Origin: an uncultured Pelagibacteraceae bacterium
GTDB lineage: Bacteria; Pseudomonadota; Alphaproteobacteria; Pelagibacterales; Pelagibacteraceae
NCBI GenBank assembly: GCA_902622795.1
Contig: CACNRD010000001.1
Coordinates: forward strand, 248,001 to 312,000
Reading direction: 5' to 3'
DNA length: 64,000 nt
Each line of letters opens with the position of its first letter. Position 1 is the stretch's first letter. A model generated the notes under the pieces. The model was not told where the DNA came from. It was given only the letters and a program-made list of their open reading frames with translations, and searched no databases. Shown piece by piece: positions 4,376 through 63,252 of this stretch. A program made the position numbers and the translations under genes.

Positions 4376-4409
4376 AAATTTTTAAAGTTAATTAGTTTAT
4401 TTTTAGATG

Positions 4410-4431
4410 AAAATAACTGACAGGTTATTTT
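4410..4431 (-). promoter_or_regulatory. Perfect inverted repeat in the rpsL leader
   Basis: An 8-base perfect inverted repeat (AAAATAAC, 6-base loop TGACAG, GTTATTTT) lies 35 bases before the rpsL start, inside the presumed leader of the str operon mRNA. The stem is AT-rich and has no following uridine run in the direction of transcription, so it is not a convincing terminator. It could be a leader structure for translational control or a chance repeat in AT-rich DNA. Confidence 0.35.
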
Positions 4432-4483
4432 GTGGCAGCGTTTAGTACTGTTAGAAGCACTACATTCCAACCAAAAACATCGC

Positions 4484-4512
4484 CAAATTACTTATTAATT
4501 AACTATTGTCAA
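4484..4512 (-). promoter_or_regulatory. Putative promoter for the rpsL-rpsG-fusA-S10 run
   Basis: On the minus strand a perfect TTGACA -35 hexamer (plus-strand tgtcaa at 4507-4512) lies about 130 bases before rpsL, in the only sizeable spacer between rpoC and rpsL. The matching -10 is weak: TAATTT-like sequence 16-17 bases downstream. No clear terminator follows rpoC, so readthrough from the rif operon is also plausible. Confidence 0.35.
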
Positions 4513-58658: not shown

Positions 58659-59690
58659 TTAACTAAATGCTTCGACCCATGTTCCTTGAGTAGATGCTTT
58701 AGAGTATTCTGTTGCGCGACCTTCAAAAAAGTTCATATGCTCTACAGCATTAAGCATAGTATCTAACCAGCCTAGAGGATTCTTATCAACATCATAAATT
58801 GCCTCTAAACCAAGTTGAACTAGTCTTCTATTAGCTATAAATCGAATATAATCCTTAACATCTTTTGCAGTTAAACCCTCCATTGGACCCATTTCAAAAG
58901 CTAAATCAATAAAAGCATCCTCATGCTCAATGATTGTTCTACAAGCTTCGTAAAGTTCTTTTTTCAACTTTGGTGTCCATATTTCAGGATTTTCATTAAT
59001 GAATTCTTTAAAAACTCTAATCATAGAATTACAGTGAAGAGTTTCATCTCTGACTGACCAAGTAACAATTTGGCCCATACCTTTCATTTTGTTATGTCTT
59101 GGAAAGTTTAGCAAAATTGCAAAACTTGCAAATAGCTGTAAGCCTTCTGTGAATGCACTAAATACAGCAACCGTTTTTGCAATATCCTCTTTGGAATTTA
59201 CATTAAAATTTTGCATGTAATCATATTTATCTTTCATTTCTTTATACTTCATAAAAGCAGAATATTCAGACTCAGGCATTCCAATTGTATCTAAAAGATG
59301 TGAATAAGCTGCAACATGAACTGTTTCCATTGATGCAAAAGCAGTCATCATCATTAAAACTTCCGTAGGTTTGAAGACTGTTGTATAGTGTCTCAAATAA
59401 CAATTGTTTACTTCAACATCAGCTTGAGTGAAAAATCTAAAAATTTGCGTTAATAGATTTTTTTCTGACTGTGATAAATTTTTTTGCCAATCTCTTACAT
59501 CGTCTCCTAAAGGAACTTCTTCAGGTAACCAGTGGATTCTTTGTTGAGTTAACCAGGCGTCATAACACCAAGGATATCTAAATGGTTTATAAACTGGGTT
59601 CTCTACTAATAATCCCATTTTTTTTGGTTGAACAATTTCCTTTTTTTCAGATTGAATAATTCCTGAACTTATTTTTTCAGCTACTGACAT
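58659..59690 (-). CDS. nrdB: Ribonucleotide reductase class I, beta subunit
   Basis: NrdB holds the diiron centre that makes the radical for deoxynucleotide synthesis. I start at ATG 59690 (MSVAEKIS, 343 residues), not the GTG three codons earlier. The metal ligands and tyrosine are in place: Asp91, Glu122, His125 and Tyr129 in METVHVAAY, then TEGLQLF and RDETLHCNS. The retained tyrosine argues for the class Ia/Ib radical chemistry rather than Tyr-less class Ic. It overlaps nrdA by 10 bases. Confidence 0.95.
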   Translation of the reverse strand: MSVAEKISSGIIQSEKKEIVQPKKMGLLVENPVYKPFRYPWCYDAWLTQQRIHWLPEEVPLGDDVRDWQKNLSQSEKNLLTQIFRFFTQADVEVNNCYLRHYTTVFKPTEVLMMMTAFASMETVHVAAYSHLLDTIGMPESEYSAFMKYKEMKDKYDYMQNFNVNSKEDIAKTVAVFSAFTEGLQLFASFAILLNFPRHNKMKGMGQIVTWSVRDETLHCNSMIRVFKEFINENPEIWTPKLKKELYEACRTIIEHEDAFIDLAFEMGPMEGLTAKDVKDYIRFIANRRLVQLGLEAIYDVDKNPLGWLDTMLNAVEHMNFFEGRATEYSKASTQGTWVEAFS

Positions 59691-61618
59691 GATAGACACT
59701 CCTCGTATTCTGTTTCTTCAGTTTTGGTTGATTTATTTTTGTAAACATTTGCCATAATATCTGTTGATTTTGCATCATTGATATTTTCAGCTCTTTGAAT
59801 TGATTTTGATCTACAATAATAAAGACTCTTCAGGCCTTTTTTCCAAGCATCAAAATGAATTTTATGAAGTTCTTTCTTATGAACATCGGCAGGTAAGAAT
59901 AAGTTCACTGATTGAGCTTGAGATATAAATGGAGTTCTGTCTCCACTTAACTCTATAATCCAATTTTGGTTTAACTCAAATGCTGTTTTAAAAACATCTT
60001 TTTCTAAATCAGTTAAGAAATCTAAATGTGATATTGAACCTTGATTAGTTGTAATACTTGACCAAGTTTCATCATCATTTTTGCCGTGGCTTTCTAATAT
60101 TTCCTCTAAATATCTATTTTTTACATTGAACGAGCCTGACAAAGTTTTATGTGTGTAGCTATTAGCGGCAATAGGTTCTACTCCTGGTGATGCTCCACCA
60201 CAAATAATAGATATTGAAGCTGTTGGTGCTATTGCAGTTTTGTTAGAAAATCTCTCTTGATAACCATATTCTGCAGCATCAGGACATGCTCCTCTTTCTT
60301 CTGCTAAATCTTTGGAAGCTTGATTTACTTTAGCATCTATATCTTTAAATATTTTTTTATTCCAAGACTTGGCCATTACAGATTCTAAAGGAATTCTATT
60401 TTTTTGAAGAAAAGAATGGAAACCCATTACACCTAATCCAACACTTCGCTCTCTTTCAGCTGAGTACTTTGCATCTTTAAATTGATCTGGTGCTTTGTTT
60501 ATGAAATCAGATAAAACATTGTCCAAAAATCTCATAACATCATTAATCATGTTTGGATCATCTTTCCACTCATCATATTTTTCTAAATTTAAAGATGATA
60601 AGCAACAAACTGCAGTTCTATCTCTACCATCTTTATCTATTCCTGTCGGCAAAGTAATTTCACTACATAGATTAGAAGTTTTAACTGTTAGATTTGCTAA
60701 CTTGTGATGCTGAGGAATTTGTCTATTAACCGTATCAATATAAATTATATATGGTTCACCAGTTTCAATTCTTGCAGTTAATAGTCTTATCCATAAATTT
60801 CTTGCAGAAATGGTTTGTTGGATTGTTCCATCTGCAGGACTTTTTAGTGCCCACTGTTCATCAGTTTCAACAGCTCTCATGAATGCATCTGAAACTAAAA
60901 CACCGTGATGTAAATTTAATGCTTTTCTATTTGGATCACCCCCTGTTGGTCTTCTCATTTCTATAAATTCTTCTATTTCAGGATGATCAATTGGAAGGTA
61001 ACAAGCAGCAGAACCTCTTCTTAAAGAACCTTGGCTAATCGCCATAGTTAATGAGTCCATAACTTTAATAAATGGAATTATTCCTGAAGTCTTTCCAACT
61101 TTACCAATTTTTTCGCCAATAGATCTTAGGTTGCCCCAATAACTTCCAATACCACCACCTTTTGCTGCAAGCCACACATTTTCACTCCATAAATCTAAAA
61201 TACCACCTAAACTATCTGATGCTTCATTTAAAAAACAAGAAATAGGTAAACCCCTTTTAGTTCCACCATTTGATAGAACAGGTGTTGCAGGCATAAACCA
61301 AAGATTACTTATATAATTATAAATTCTTTGTGCATGAAGGTTGTCATCAGCATATGAGCTTGCAACTCTAGCAAATAAATCTTGATAAGATTCGTTGTGA
61401 CCAAGATATCTATCTTTTAAAGTTGCTTTACCAAAGTCAGTTAAATTTGCATCTTTTGAACGATCAATCTTAATAATAATACCCTTGTCATTTTGAAATA
61501 GTTCTGTTTCGTTATTTAATGAGAAAAGATCAGGTCTTTTATCTTTTGAAACCTCACTAACTTGAGGGATGTATTCAGAGACAGCTTTCTTTAGGGCCTG
61601 CGATAAAATTTTGTTCAT
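59681..61618 (-). CDS. nrdA: Ribonucleotide reductase class I, alpha subunit (no ATP-cone)
   Basis: NrdA is the catalytic subunit that reduces ribonucleotides. It has 645 residues from ATG 61618; the track start at 61654 is a TTG inside the promoter region. Visible motifs are FMPATPVLSNGGTKRGLPISCF (catalytic Cys), TSNLCSEI (second Cys) and the C-terminal redox tail ECLSCQ. The N-terminus begins with a short 70-residue region and no ATP-cone, whereas E. coli NrdA has 761 residues. So allosteric activity control by dATP is probably lost. It is preceded by two NrdR-like boxes. Confidence 0.93.
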   Translation of the reverse strand: MNKILSQALKKAVSEYIPQVSEVSKDKRPDLFSLNNETELFQNDKGIIIKIDRSKDANLTDFGKATLKDRYLGHNESYQDLFARVASSYADDNLHAQRIYNYISNLWFMPATPVLSNGGTKRGLPISCFLNEASDSLGGILDLWSENVWLAAKGGGIGSYWGNLRSIGEKIGKVGKTSGIIPFIKVMDSLTMAISQGSLRRGSAACYLPIDHPEIEEFIEMRRPTGGDPNRKALNLHHGVLVSDAFMRAVETDEQWALKSPADGTIQQTISARNLWIRLLTARIETGEPYIIYIDTVNRQIPQHHKLANLTVKTSNLCSEITLPTGIDKDGRDRTAVCCLSSLNLEKYDEWKDDPNMINDVMRFLDNVLSDFINKAPDQFKDAKYSAERERSVGLGVMGFHSFLQKNRIPLESVMAKSWNKKIFKDIDAKVNQASKDLAEERGACPDAAEYGYQERFSNKTAIAPTASISIICGGASPGVEPIAANSYTHKTLSGSFNVKNRYLEEILESHGKNDDETWSSITTNQGSISHLDFLTDLEKDVFKTAFELNQNWIIELSGDRTPFISQAQSVNLFLPADVHKKELHKIHFDAWKKGLKSLYYCRSKSIQRAENINDAKSTDIMANVYKNKSTKTEETEYEECLSCQ

Positions 61619-61625
61619 AACTTTT

Positions 61626-61654
61626 ATTATAATTTGTTTATTTAACGAAAACAA
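61626..61654 (-). promoter_or_regulatory. nrdA: Putative nrdA promoter
   Basis: On the minus strand TTGTTT (61649-61654) and a consensus TATAAT (61626-61631) are 17 bases apart. The expected start, about 7 bases further, falls at 61619, one base before the ATG at 61618, implying a leaderless or nearly leaderless nrdA mRNA. The proximal NrdR-like box overlaps the -35. Confidence 0.45.
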
Positions 61655-61667
61655 CTACATGTTGTAG
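61652..61667 (-). promoter_or_regulatory. NrdR-like box, proximal
   Basis: On the minus strand this 16-base window contains CAACATGTAG, matching all six conserved core positions of the NrdR box C-w-A-n-A-T-n-T-w-G. Its centre is 31 bp from that of the distal box, the spacing of three helical turns seen in paired nrd boxes. NrdR is an ATP/dATP-sensing repressor of ribonucleotide reductase genes. Confidence 0.55.
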
Positions 61668-61682
61668 GCGTTTAGTGTTAAT

Positions 61683-61698
61683 ATACTATATAAACAGT
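61683..61698 (-). promoter_or_regulatory. NrdR-like box, distal
   Basis: On the minus strand ACTGTTTATATAGTAT matches about 12 of 16 positions of the NrdR consensus (acaCwAtATaTwGtgt), missing some outer positions. It is paired with the proximal box exactly 31 bp away. Each box alone would be weak; the pair upstream of nrdA makes chance less likely. Confidence 0.5.
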
Positions 61699-61797
61699 AA
61701 ATCAACAGAACATTTATAGAACATGAAAAATTATATTTCAATAAAAAAAATTAAAAAATTACAGTTAATTAACATAAAAGAGATAAGAAATTAACAA

Positions 61798-63252
61798 ATG
61801 ACACAAAATATTAAAATTGATCCCTATGGTTTCAGAGAATATGACGCTCGGTGGTTGTACGAAGAAAGCATAAATAAAGCAGGAATAGAGAATCTTGGAA
61901 AAGGTTTAGGAACACAGATAATTAATCATACCAAAAAAAATAATCCTACCGTTATAGTTGGTCATGACTATCGTTCTTATAGCGAGGAAATAAAAACAGC
62001 TCTTAAAAAAGGATTGCTATCAACTGGGTGTAATGTCGAAGATGTTGGATTATCGTTGTCACCTATGGTTTATTTTGCTCAATTTAATTTAAACTCTGAT
62101 GCTGTTGCAATGGTGACCGCAAGTCATAATGAAAATGGGTGGACTGGAGTTAAAATGGGTATCAAAAAAGGATTAACTCATGCGCCTGAAGAAATGAAGG
62201 AACTAAAAGAAATAACATTAAATCAAAAATTTATATCAGGTCAAGGAAGTGAAAAAGTAATTGAAAATTTCCAACAAGTTTACAAGGGAGATTTAATCGA
62301 AAATAATAAAATTAATAAAAAAATAAAAGTAGTTGTTGCATGTGGTAATGGAACTGCTGGTATATTCGCTCCAGATATATTAAGAGGTATAGGTTGTGAA
62401 GTAATCGAACTAGATTGCAATCTAGACTGGAACTTTCCAAAGTATAATCCTAATCCTGAAGATTTAGAGATGCTTCATGAGATAGCAAAATCTGTAAAAG
62501 AAAATAATGCAGATATTGGCTTTGGTTTTGATGGAGACGGTGACAGAGTTGGAGTGATAGACAACAAAGGTAATGAAATATTCTCAGATAAAATTGGTTT
62601 ATTAATTGCTAGAAATTTATCTAAAAAACATCAGAATTCAAAGTTTGTAGTAGACGTTAAATCTACAGGCTTATACTCAAAAGATAAGGTATTATTAGAA
62701 AACAAATGTAGTACCATTTATTGGAAAACAGGTCATTCACATATTAAAAGAAAAGTTAACACAGAAAAAGCTTTAGCTGGCTTTGAAAAAAGTGGACATT
62801 TCTTTTTTAATCAACCATTAGGTTATGGATATGATGATGGGATTAATTCAGCAATTCAAGTATGTCATTTATTAAATAATCAAAACAAAGAAATGAGTAA
62901 AATTATTGAAGAATTACCAATAACCTATCAATCCCCTACTATGGCCCCTTTTTGCAAAGATGAAGAAAAATATCAAGTAGTTGAAGAATTGGTAAAACAA
63001 GTTGAGCAAGTTAAAAATAATAAAATACCAATTGATAATCAAATTATTGCAGAGATTTTAACAGTTAATGGAATTAGATTTTCTTTTGAGGATGGCTCAT
63101 GGGGTTTAATCAGAGCATCATCAAATAAACCTTCTTTAGTAGTCGTTACTGAAAGTCCAACATCGAATGAAAGGAAAAAAAAAATCTTTGATTTTATAGA
63201 CGATTTACTTCAAAAAACAGGTAAGGTTGGTGAATATGACCAGAAAATTTAA
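61798..63252 (+). CDS. Phosphomannomutase/phosphoglucomutase (alpha-D-phosphohexomutase)
   Basis: This enzyme interconverts hexose 1- and 6-phosphates and supplies NDP-sugar precursors. The 484-residue protein has the phosphoserine loop TASHN (107-111), the magnesium loop GFDGDGDRVGV (about 240) and the sugar-binding loop GFEKSGHFFF. That fits the PMM/PGM (AlgC/ManB) group. It is divergent from nrdA, with a 179-base spacer, and shares its TTAA stop with the convergent coiled-coil gene. Its product can feed the surface-glycan and glucosylglycerate pathways elsewhere in the window (inference). Confidence 0.9.
   Translation: MTQNIKIDPYGFREYDARWLYEESINKAGIENLGKGLGTQIINHTKKNNPTVIVGHDYRSYSEEIKTALKKGLLSTGCNVEDVGLSLSPMVYFAQFNLNSDAVAMVTASHNENGWTGVKMGIKKGLTHAPEEMKELKEITLNQKFISGQGSEKVIENFQQVYKGDLIENNKINKKIKVVVACGNGTAGIFAPDILRGIGCEVIELDCNLDWNFPKYNPNPEDLEMLHEIAKSVKENNADIGFGFDGDGDRVGVIDNKGNEIFSDKIGLLIARNLSKKHQNSKFVVDVKSTGLYSKDKVLLENKCSTIYWKTGHSHIKRKVNTEKALAGFEKSGHFFFNQPLGYGYDDGINSAIQVCHLLNNQNKEMSKIIEELPITYQSPTMAPFCKDEEKYQVVEELVKQVEQVKNNKIPIDNQIIAEILTVNGIRFSFEDGSWGLIRASSNKPSLVVVTESPTSNERKKKIFDFIDDLLQKTGKVGEYDQKI

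Follow-up and report, generated by a model that had tools for sequence, protein, structure and literature searches.

The window, i.e., the whole 64,000-nucleotide stretch of DNA analysed here, comes from a member of SAR11 (Pelagibacteraceae) with an assembly of 1.02 Mb. Among named genomes, the nearest to it are single-cell genomes of Pelagibacteraceae, likewise of SAR11, with NrdA identities of up to 99%. Two genes of class I ribonucleotide reductase (RNR) were found as open reading frames on the minus strand: nrdA for the alpha subunit (59681..61618, 645 aa, ATG at 61618) and nrdB for the beta subunit (58659..59699). Since nrdB overlaps the 3' end of nrdA, the two genes are likely to form an operon. 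NrdA scored 1011 bits against the NCBIfam equivalog PRK09102 (cut-off 620) and NrdB 564 bits against PRK09614.1-5 (cut-off 237). In the Pfam search, NrdA contained the domains Ribonuc_red_lgN and Ribonuc_red_lgC only, and an ATP-cone was detected in neither NrdA nor NrdB, which bears out an earlier note on this DNA in which NrdA was described as lacking that domain; transcriptional control may, as was also suggested there, carry more weight for this reason. A phosphomannomutase/phosphoglucomutase-like open reading frame (61798..63252, plus strand) is divergent from nrdA and has the intergenic region in common with it. The control region upstream of nrdAB in SAR11 is compact, at about 180 bp. 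NrdA matches were absent from some genomes of the same genus rated as 95-96% complete (G004, G103, G114, G126 and others), probably as a result of gaps in single-cell assemblies. Elsewhere in the window, positions 4396-4486 on the minus strand matched Rfam family RF01823 (rpsL sRNA family) with 91.6 bits.

Two NrdR-like boxes with centres 31 bp apart had been noted earlier upstream of nrdA, the proximal one with a full core, and both the coordinates and the matrix scores agree with that description. The proximal box CTACAACATGTAGTTG (61652-61667, minus strand) carries all six core letters of CnAnATnTnG, and the distal box ACTGTTTATATAGTAT (61683-61698, minus strand) has one good half-site. The matrix was derived from box pairs upstream of nrdA in other Alphaproteobacteria, a set independent of the window. 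With it, the proximal box ranked first among 63,984 window positions and the 31-bp pair first among 63,953, the matrix being biased toward the CnAnATnTnG core because its training boxes were picked by the same core. The distal box is weak when taken alone, its score being reached at 540 of the 63,984 positions in the window. Across 37 non-redundant SAR11 sequences the proximal box is conserved, and the two offsets with the best mean scores were exactly those of the proximal and distal boxes, the distal one being second-best. NrdR box pairs were also present before nrdA in 52 of the 86 upstream regions surveyed in other Alphaproteobacteria. It was reported that NrdR binds best when the spacer between boxes is 15-17 bp (PMC12051234), with which the 31-bp centre distance agrees, and the spacers of the E. 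coli NrdR boxes are 15 bp (PMC12176259).

The nrdR gene, which the earlier proposal of NrdR repression presupposes, is encoded elsewhere in the genome (contig C1, 198455-198889) and is intact, with both a Zn-ribbon (PF22811) and an ATP-cone (PF03477). It was detected in 55 of 61 relatives, including all 18 of the near-complete ones. Boxes before other nrd genes had been envisaged as well, but in this genome the strong motif was found only at nrdA: the proximal motif ACAACATNTAGTTGT, with at most one mismatch, has a single occurrence there, the strong motif search yielded no further NrdR targets in the genome, and no convincing 31-bp box pair was found near nrdR. An intact nrdR, a unique and conserved box, the 31-bp phasing and the pairs in other Alphaproteobacteria make NrdR control of nrdA a well-supported prediction. 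The box pair with its promoter thus holds up and repression of nrdA by NrdR is likely, but the earlier reading of the region was incomplete, a LexA box at 61708-61722 having been omitted.

This LexA (SOS) box, GTTCTATAAATGTTC on the minus strand, is of the type GTTC-N7-GTTC, which is the LexA operator of Alphaproteobacteria as stated for Caulobacter (PMC12700426). It is the only exact match in the window, a count that is unremarkable against the 0.73 expected in 64 kb; remarkable are its place and its conservation. The box was found in 146 of 147 SAR11 nrdA upstream regions and is the best conserved element of the region, the set spanning five genera with related members, so that the counts are not independent; a sixth SAR11 genus (g5) also has the box at nrdA. 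In the 37 non-redundant SAR11 sequences both GTTC half-sites were invariant across genera. The distance from the box to the proximal NrdR core was 58 bp (142 regions) or 59 bp (4 regions), and that to the nrdA ATG was 93-111 bp. The stretch between the two half-sites is occupied by the -10 of a predicted distal promoter, P1 (TTGAAA-N17-TATAAA, minus strand; -35 at 61736-61741, -10 at 61713-61718), from which an mRNA with about 90 nt of leader is predicted. In 34 of the 37 non-redundant sequences a -35 of the TTG type occurs at 16-18 bp, against 1.9 expected. The candidate promoter P2 (TTGATT-N16-TATTAA, minus strand; -35 at 61700-61705, -10 at 61678-61683) is speculative and its weak -10 runs into the distal NrdR box; its TTGA, just after the LexA box, is conserved in nearly all of the 37 sequences.

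Lying in a divergent intergenic region, the LexA box could serve the mutase gene instead of nrdA or as well. The mutase is the divergent neighbour of nrdA in every SAR11 genus examined, which agrees with such a role, so synteny cannot separate the two genes as LexA targets. It is nevertheless very improbable that the box serves the mutase while nrdA is under NrdR only. Its distance from the NrdR core is fixed at 58-59 bp, whereas that from the mutase ATG varies from 26 to 76 bp; the promoter within the box, P1, points toward nrdA; and in other alphaproteobacterial families with a LexA box before nrdA, the neighbour genes are different. Among 84 nrdA upstream regions of other Alphaproteobacteria, GTTCN7GTTC was found on the coding strand in nine, against 0.5 expected from first-order shuffles, and control patterns with shifted spacing gave 0-1 matches in the same 84 regions (one region, L234, was left out of the class survey). 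In four of these nine, the start of the LexA box is 30 bp ahead of the distal NrdR core.

In three of these Alphaproteobacteria (L206, L231 and L244), the product of the divergent neighbour of nrdA begins with MCGRF, and the intergenic region between the two genes holds both the LexA box and the NrdR pair. This neighbour looks like an SRAP (SOS-associated) gene, and the LexA box may therefore serve that gene there. In a sister family of the same order (f2), the RNR is a 1200-aa class II reductase (nrdJ); LexA control of this gene was considered and rejected, because the search before nrdJ revealed only an NrdR pair and a LexA box was not found. Downstream of this pair comes a leader of some 150 nt, which contains the conserved pieces TCTAGAAAGTTACTCA, CTGGCA and CCGGTCGA and gave no Rfam match at gathering score.

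The promoter next to nrdA, P3, is the TTGTTT-N17-TATAAT of the earlier note and is present on the minus strand with its -35 at 61649-61654 and its -10 at 61626-61631. Its predicted start falls at 61618-61619, i.e., the mRNA would be leaderless; the 7 nt between the -10 and the ATG are the right distance for transcription to begin one base before the ATG. With 3/6 consensus letters the -35 is weak, the TTGTTT is wholly accounted for by the NrdR box, and P3 was not listed by a generic promoter scan, which demands a T ending the -10 and at least 4/6 letters per hexamer. Conservation is also wider for P1 and for the TTGA of P2 than for P3. These facts would fit an nrdA mRNA that is leadered and made from P1 or P2 only, with the TATAAT before the ATG arising by chance in AT-rich DNA. 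Such an explanation is rather unlikely, however, because, of the 40 non-redundant SAR11 linkers without a Shine-Dalgarno sequence, 26 carry TATAAT (at least 5/6 letters) at a spacing of exactly N17, against 2.0 expected (13-fold), while spacings other than N16 and N17 were near expectation and, of the neighbouring ones, only N16 showed the signal. Moreover, the P3 -10 at N17 was absent from the relatives bearing a Shine-Dalgarno sequence (0 of 13 testable linkers; 16 were non-redundant and 13 long enough). Chance had been considered the explanation on account of this absence, and was rejected when the spacing test reversed it for the window's clade.

In the window's clade the -10 and the ATG are 6-10 nt apart and there is no Shine-Dalgarno sequence, whereas other SAR11 clades have GGGAG before the nrdA ATG and no P3-type -10, but keep the LexA box. 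Leaderless nrdA is therefore not general to SAR11, and the few sequences with neither the P3 -10 nor a Shine-Dalgarno sequence must use P1 or P2. It is plausible that the nrdA mRNA made from P3 is leaderless in the window's clade and that the mRNA is leadered elsewhere. The leaderless mRNA proposed earlier thus finds comparative support within this clade, but it does not extend to all SAR11, and P3 is unlikely to be the sole promoter in view of P1. The distribution of P3 also bears on the question of whether NrdR might act alone, on a single leaderless promoter, with the GTTC repeat being incidental or a promoter element only. Both the NrdR pair and P3 have good support, and the TATAAA in the box could be kept purely as a -10. 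On the other hand, both GTTC half-sites are invariant, yet the -10 is formed only by the seven bases between them; patterns with shifted spacing give few or no matches in other Alphaproteobacteria; and there are SAR11 clades that have retained the LexA box but lack P3. Control by NrdR alone is accordingly regarded as improbable.

The LexA protein of the genome is intact, with DNA-binding and S24 peptidase domains, and lexA is itself preceded, just upstream, by a LexA box, GTTCTATAAAAGTTC, which shares 14 of 15 letters with the nrdA site. Six exact GTTCN7GTTC matches were found in this genome, among which only those at lexA and nrdA are intergenic. Similarly, of the 13 exact matches in a closed SAR11 genome (G012), 10 lie within genes, and the other three are intergenic and stand before umuD, nrdA and lexA. 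In the latter genome the LexA box directly adjoins the umuD ATG, and the umuD mRNA may therefore have a very short leader. For recA, a variant LexA site, GTAC-N7-GTTC, was present in nine of nine SAR11-order genomes checked. In these genomes the one-letter operator variant GAACAAAATGTGTACA hardly varies and lies 54-64 bp upstream of recA, and it is kept even in the sister family whose RNR gene is without a LexA box. Judged from such sites, the SAR11 LexA regulon looks minimal, with lexA, umuD, nrdAB and, through the variant site, recA, and RNR would therefore be a core member of it.

Based on the sites, spacing and conservation observed, together with intact lexA and nrdR genes, it is probable that nrdAB is under two promoters and two repressors, LexA responding to SOS and NrdR to dNTP levels. 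It was reported that NrdR binds with dATP plus ATP and is released with ATP (PMC12051234). When dNTPs are plentiful, NrdR with dATP and ATP would bind the 31-bp-spaced pair and block transcription, and P3 and P2 should therefore be shut at high dATP. LexA bound to GTTC-N7-GTTC would cover the -10 of P1, blocking P1 and perhaps P2 until the SOS response, in which RecA on damaged or stalled DNA would cause LexA to cleave itself and P1 to be freed. With the LexA operator over the P1 -10, nrdAB is thus proposed to belong to the SOS genes and at the same time to be under dNTP feedback. P1 would then give a leadered, SOS-inducible mRNA, and in the window's clade P3, whose -35 overlaps the proximal NrdR box, would give a housekeeping mRNA that is translated without a leader. 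More tentatively, and with somewhat less confidence than an even chance would imply, the LexA operator and NrdR pair on a class I RNR might be an old alphaproteobacterial device by which dNTP supply is drawn into the core of the SOS response, and from which one SAR11 clade evolved a two-promoter switch, leadered and LexA-controlled for damage or phage and leaderless and NrdR-controlled for growth.

SAR11, which has few regulators, is among the most abundant bacterial groups. Should the RNR promoter be one of only some four that are under SOS control, the supply of dNTPs would be a core part of the SAR11 damage response. LexA control, if true, would also explain the rise of host nrdAB during infection by a phage without its own nrdAB. 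In Pelagibacter ubique, lexA, recA and mucA mark a late iron-stress cluster (PMC2864753), and the proposed control may link iron stress to RNR, a class I enzyme that probably needs iron. Control of nrdAB by LexA has been sought in Vibrio and was not found; SAR11 offers a direct test. The SAR11 clades with and without P3 also form a natural pair for studying the origin of leaderless starts.

In strain HTCC1062 infected by phage HTVC027P, RNA-seq at 9-15 h showed increases of 3.1-8.9 fold for nrdA and 2.5-5.8 fold for nrdB, and recA, lexA, umuD and umuC were also up (PMC12753301). Many host genes rose in this infection, and the authors treat the upregulation of nrdAB and that of the SOS genes as separate effects and do not link nrdAB to LexA (PMC12753301); the LexA box could account for both, the joint rise being a correlation in another SAR11 strain. 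Neither a SAR11 transcription start map nor an earlier report that LexA controls nrdAB in any alphaproteobacterium, or does so jointly with NrdR, was found in the open literature, the coverage of which was incomplete.

The NrdR part of the region resembles the RNR operons of E. coli, Listeria and Streptomyces, with two 16-bp palindromic boxes, a spacer of about 15 bp, overlapping promoter elements and nrdR in the genome (PMC12176259, PMC12051234). It differs from these in that the SAR11 distal box has one good half, a LexA box is added and the proximal promoter may be leaderless. Other factors listed for the E. coli RNR promoters are DnaA, H-NS, Fur, IscR and Fnr, and LexA is not named among them (PMC12176259). 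As in the SOS regulon of Caulobacter crescentus, the operator is GTTCN7GTTC, LexA is intact and sites precede lexA and umuD; unlike in SAR11, however, no nrd gene is named in the main text of the Caulobacter paper (PMC12700426). In Vibrio cholerae, nrdAB is induced by DNA damage and its promoter has a LexA-like sequence close by, but no binding of LexA to the nrdA promoter was seen in EMSA (PMC5963079); the SAR11 nrdA site, by comparison, is an exact and conserved consensus of a different type. The region is best described as one of probable joint control of nrdAB by LexA and NrdR, a novel arrangement of known types of regulation.
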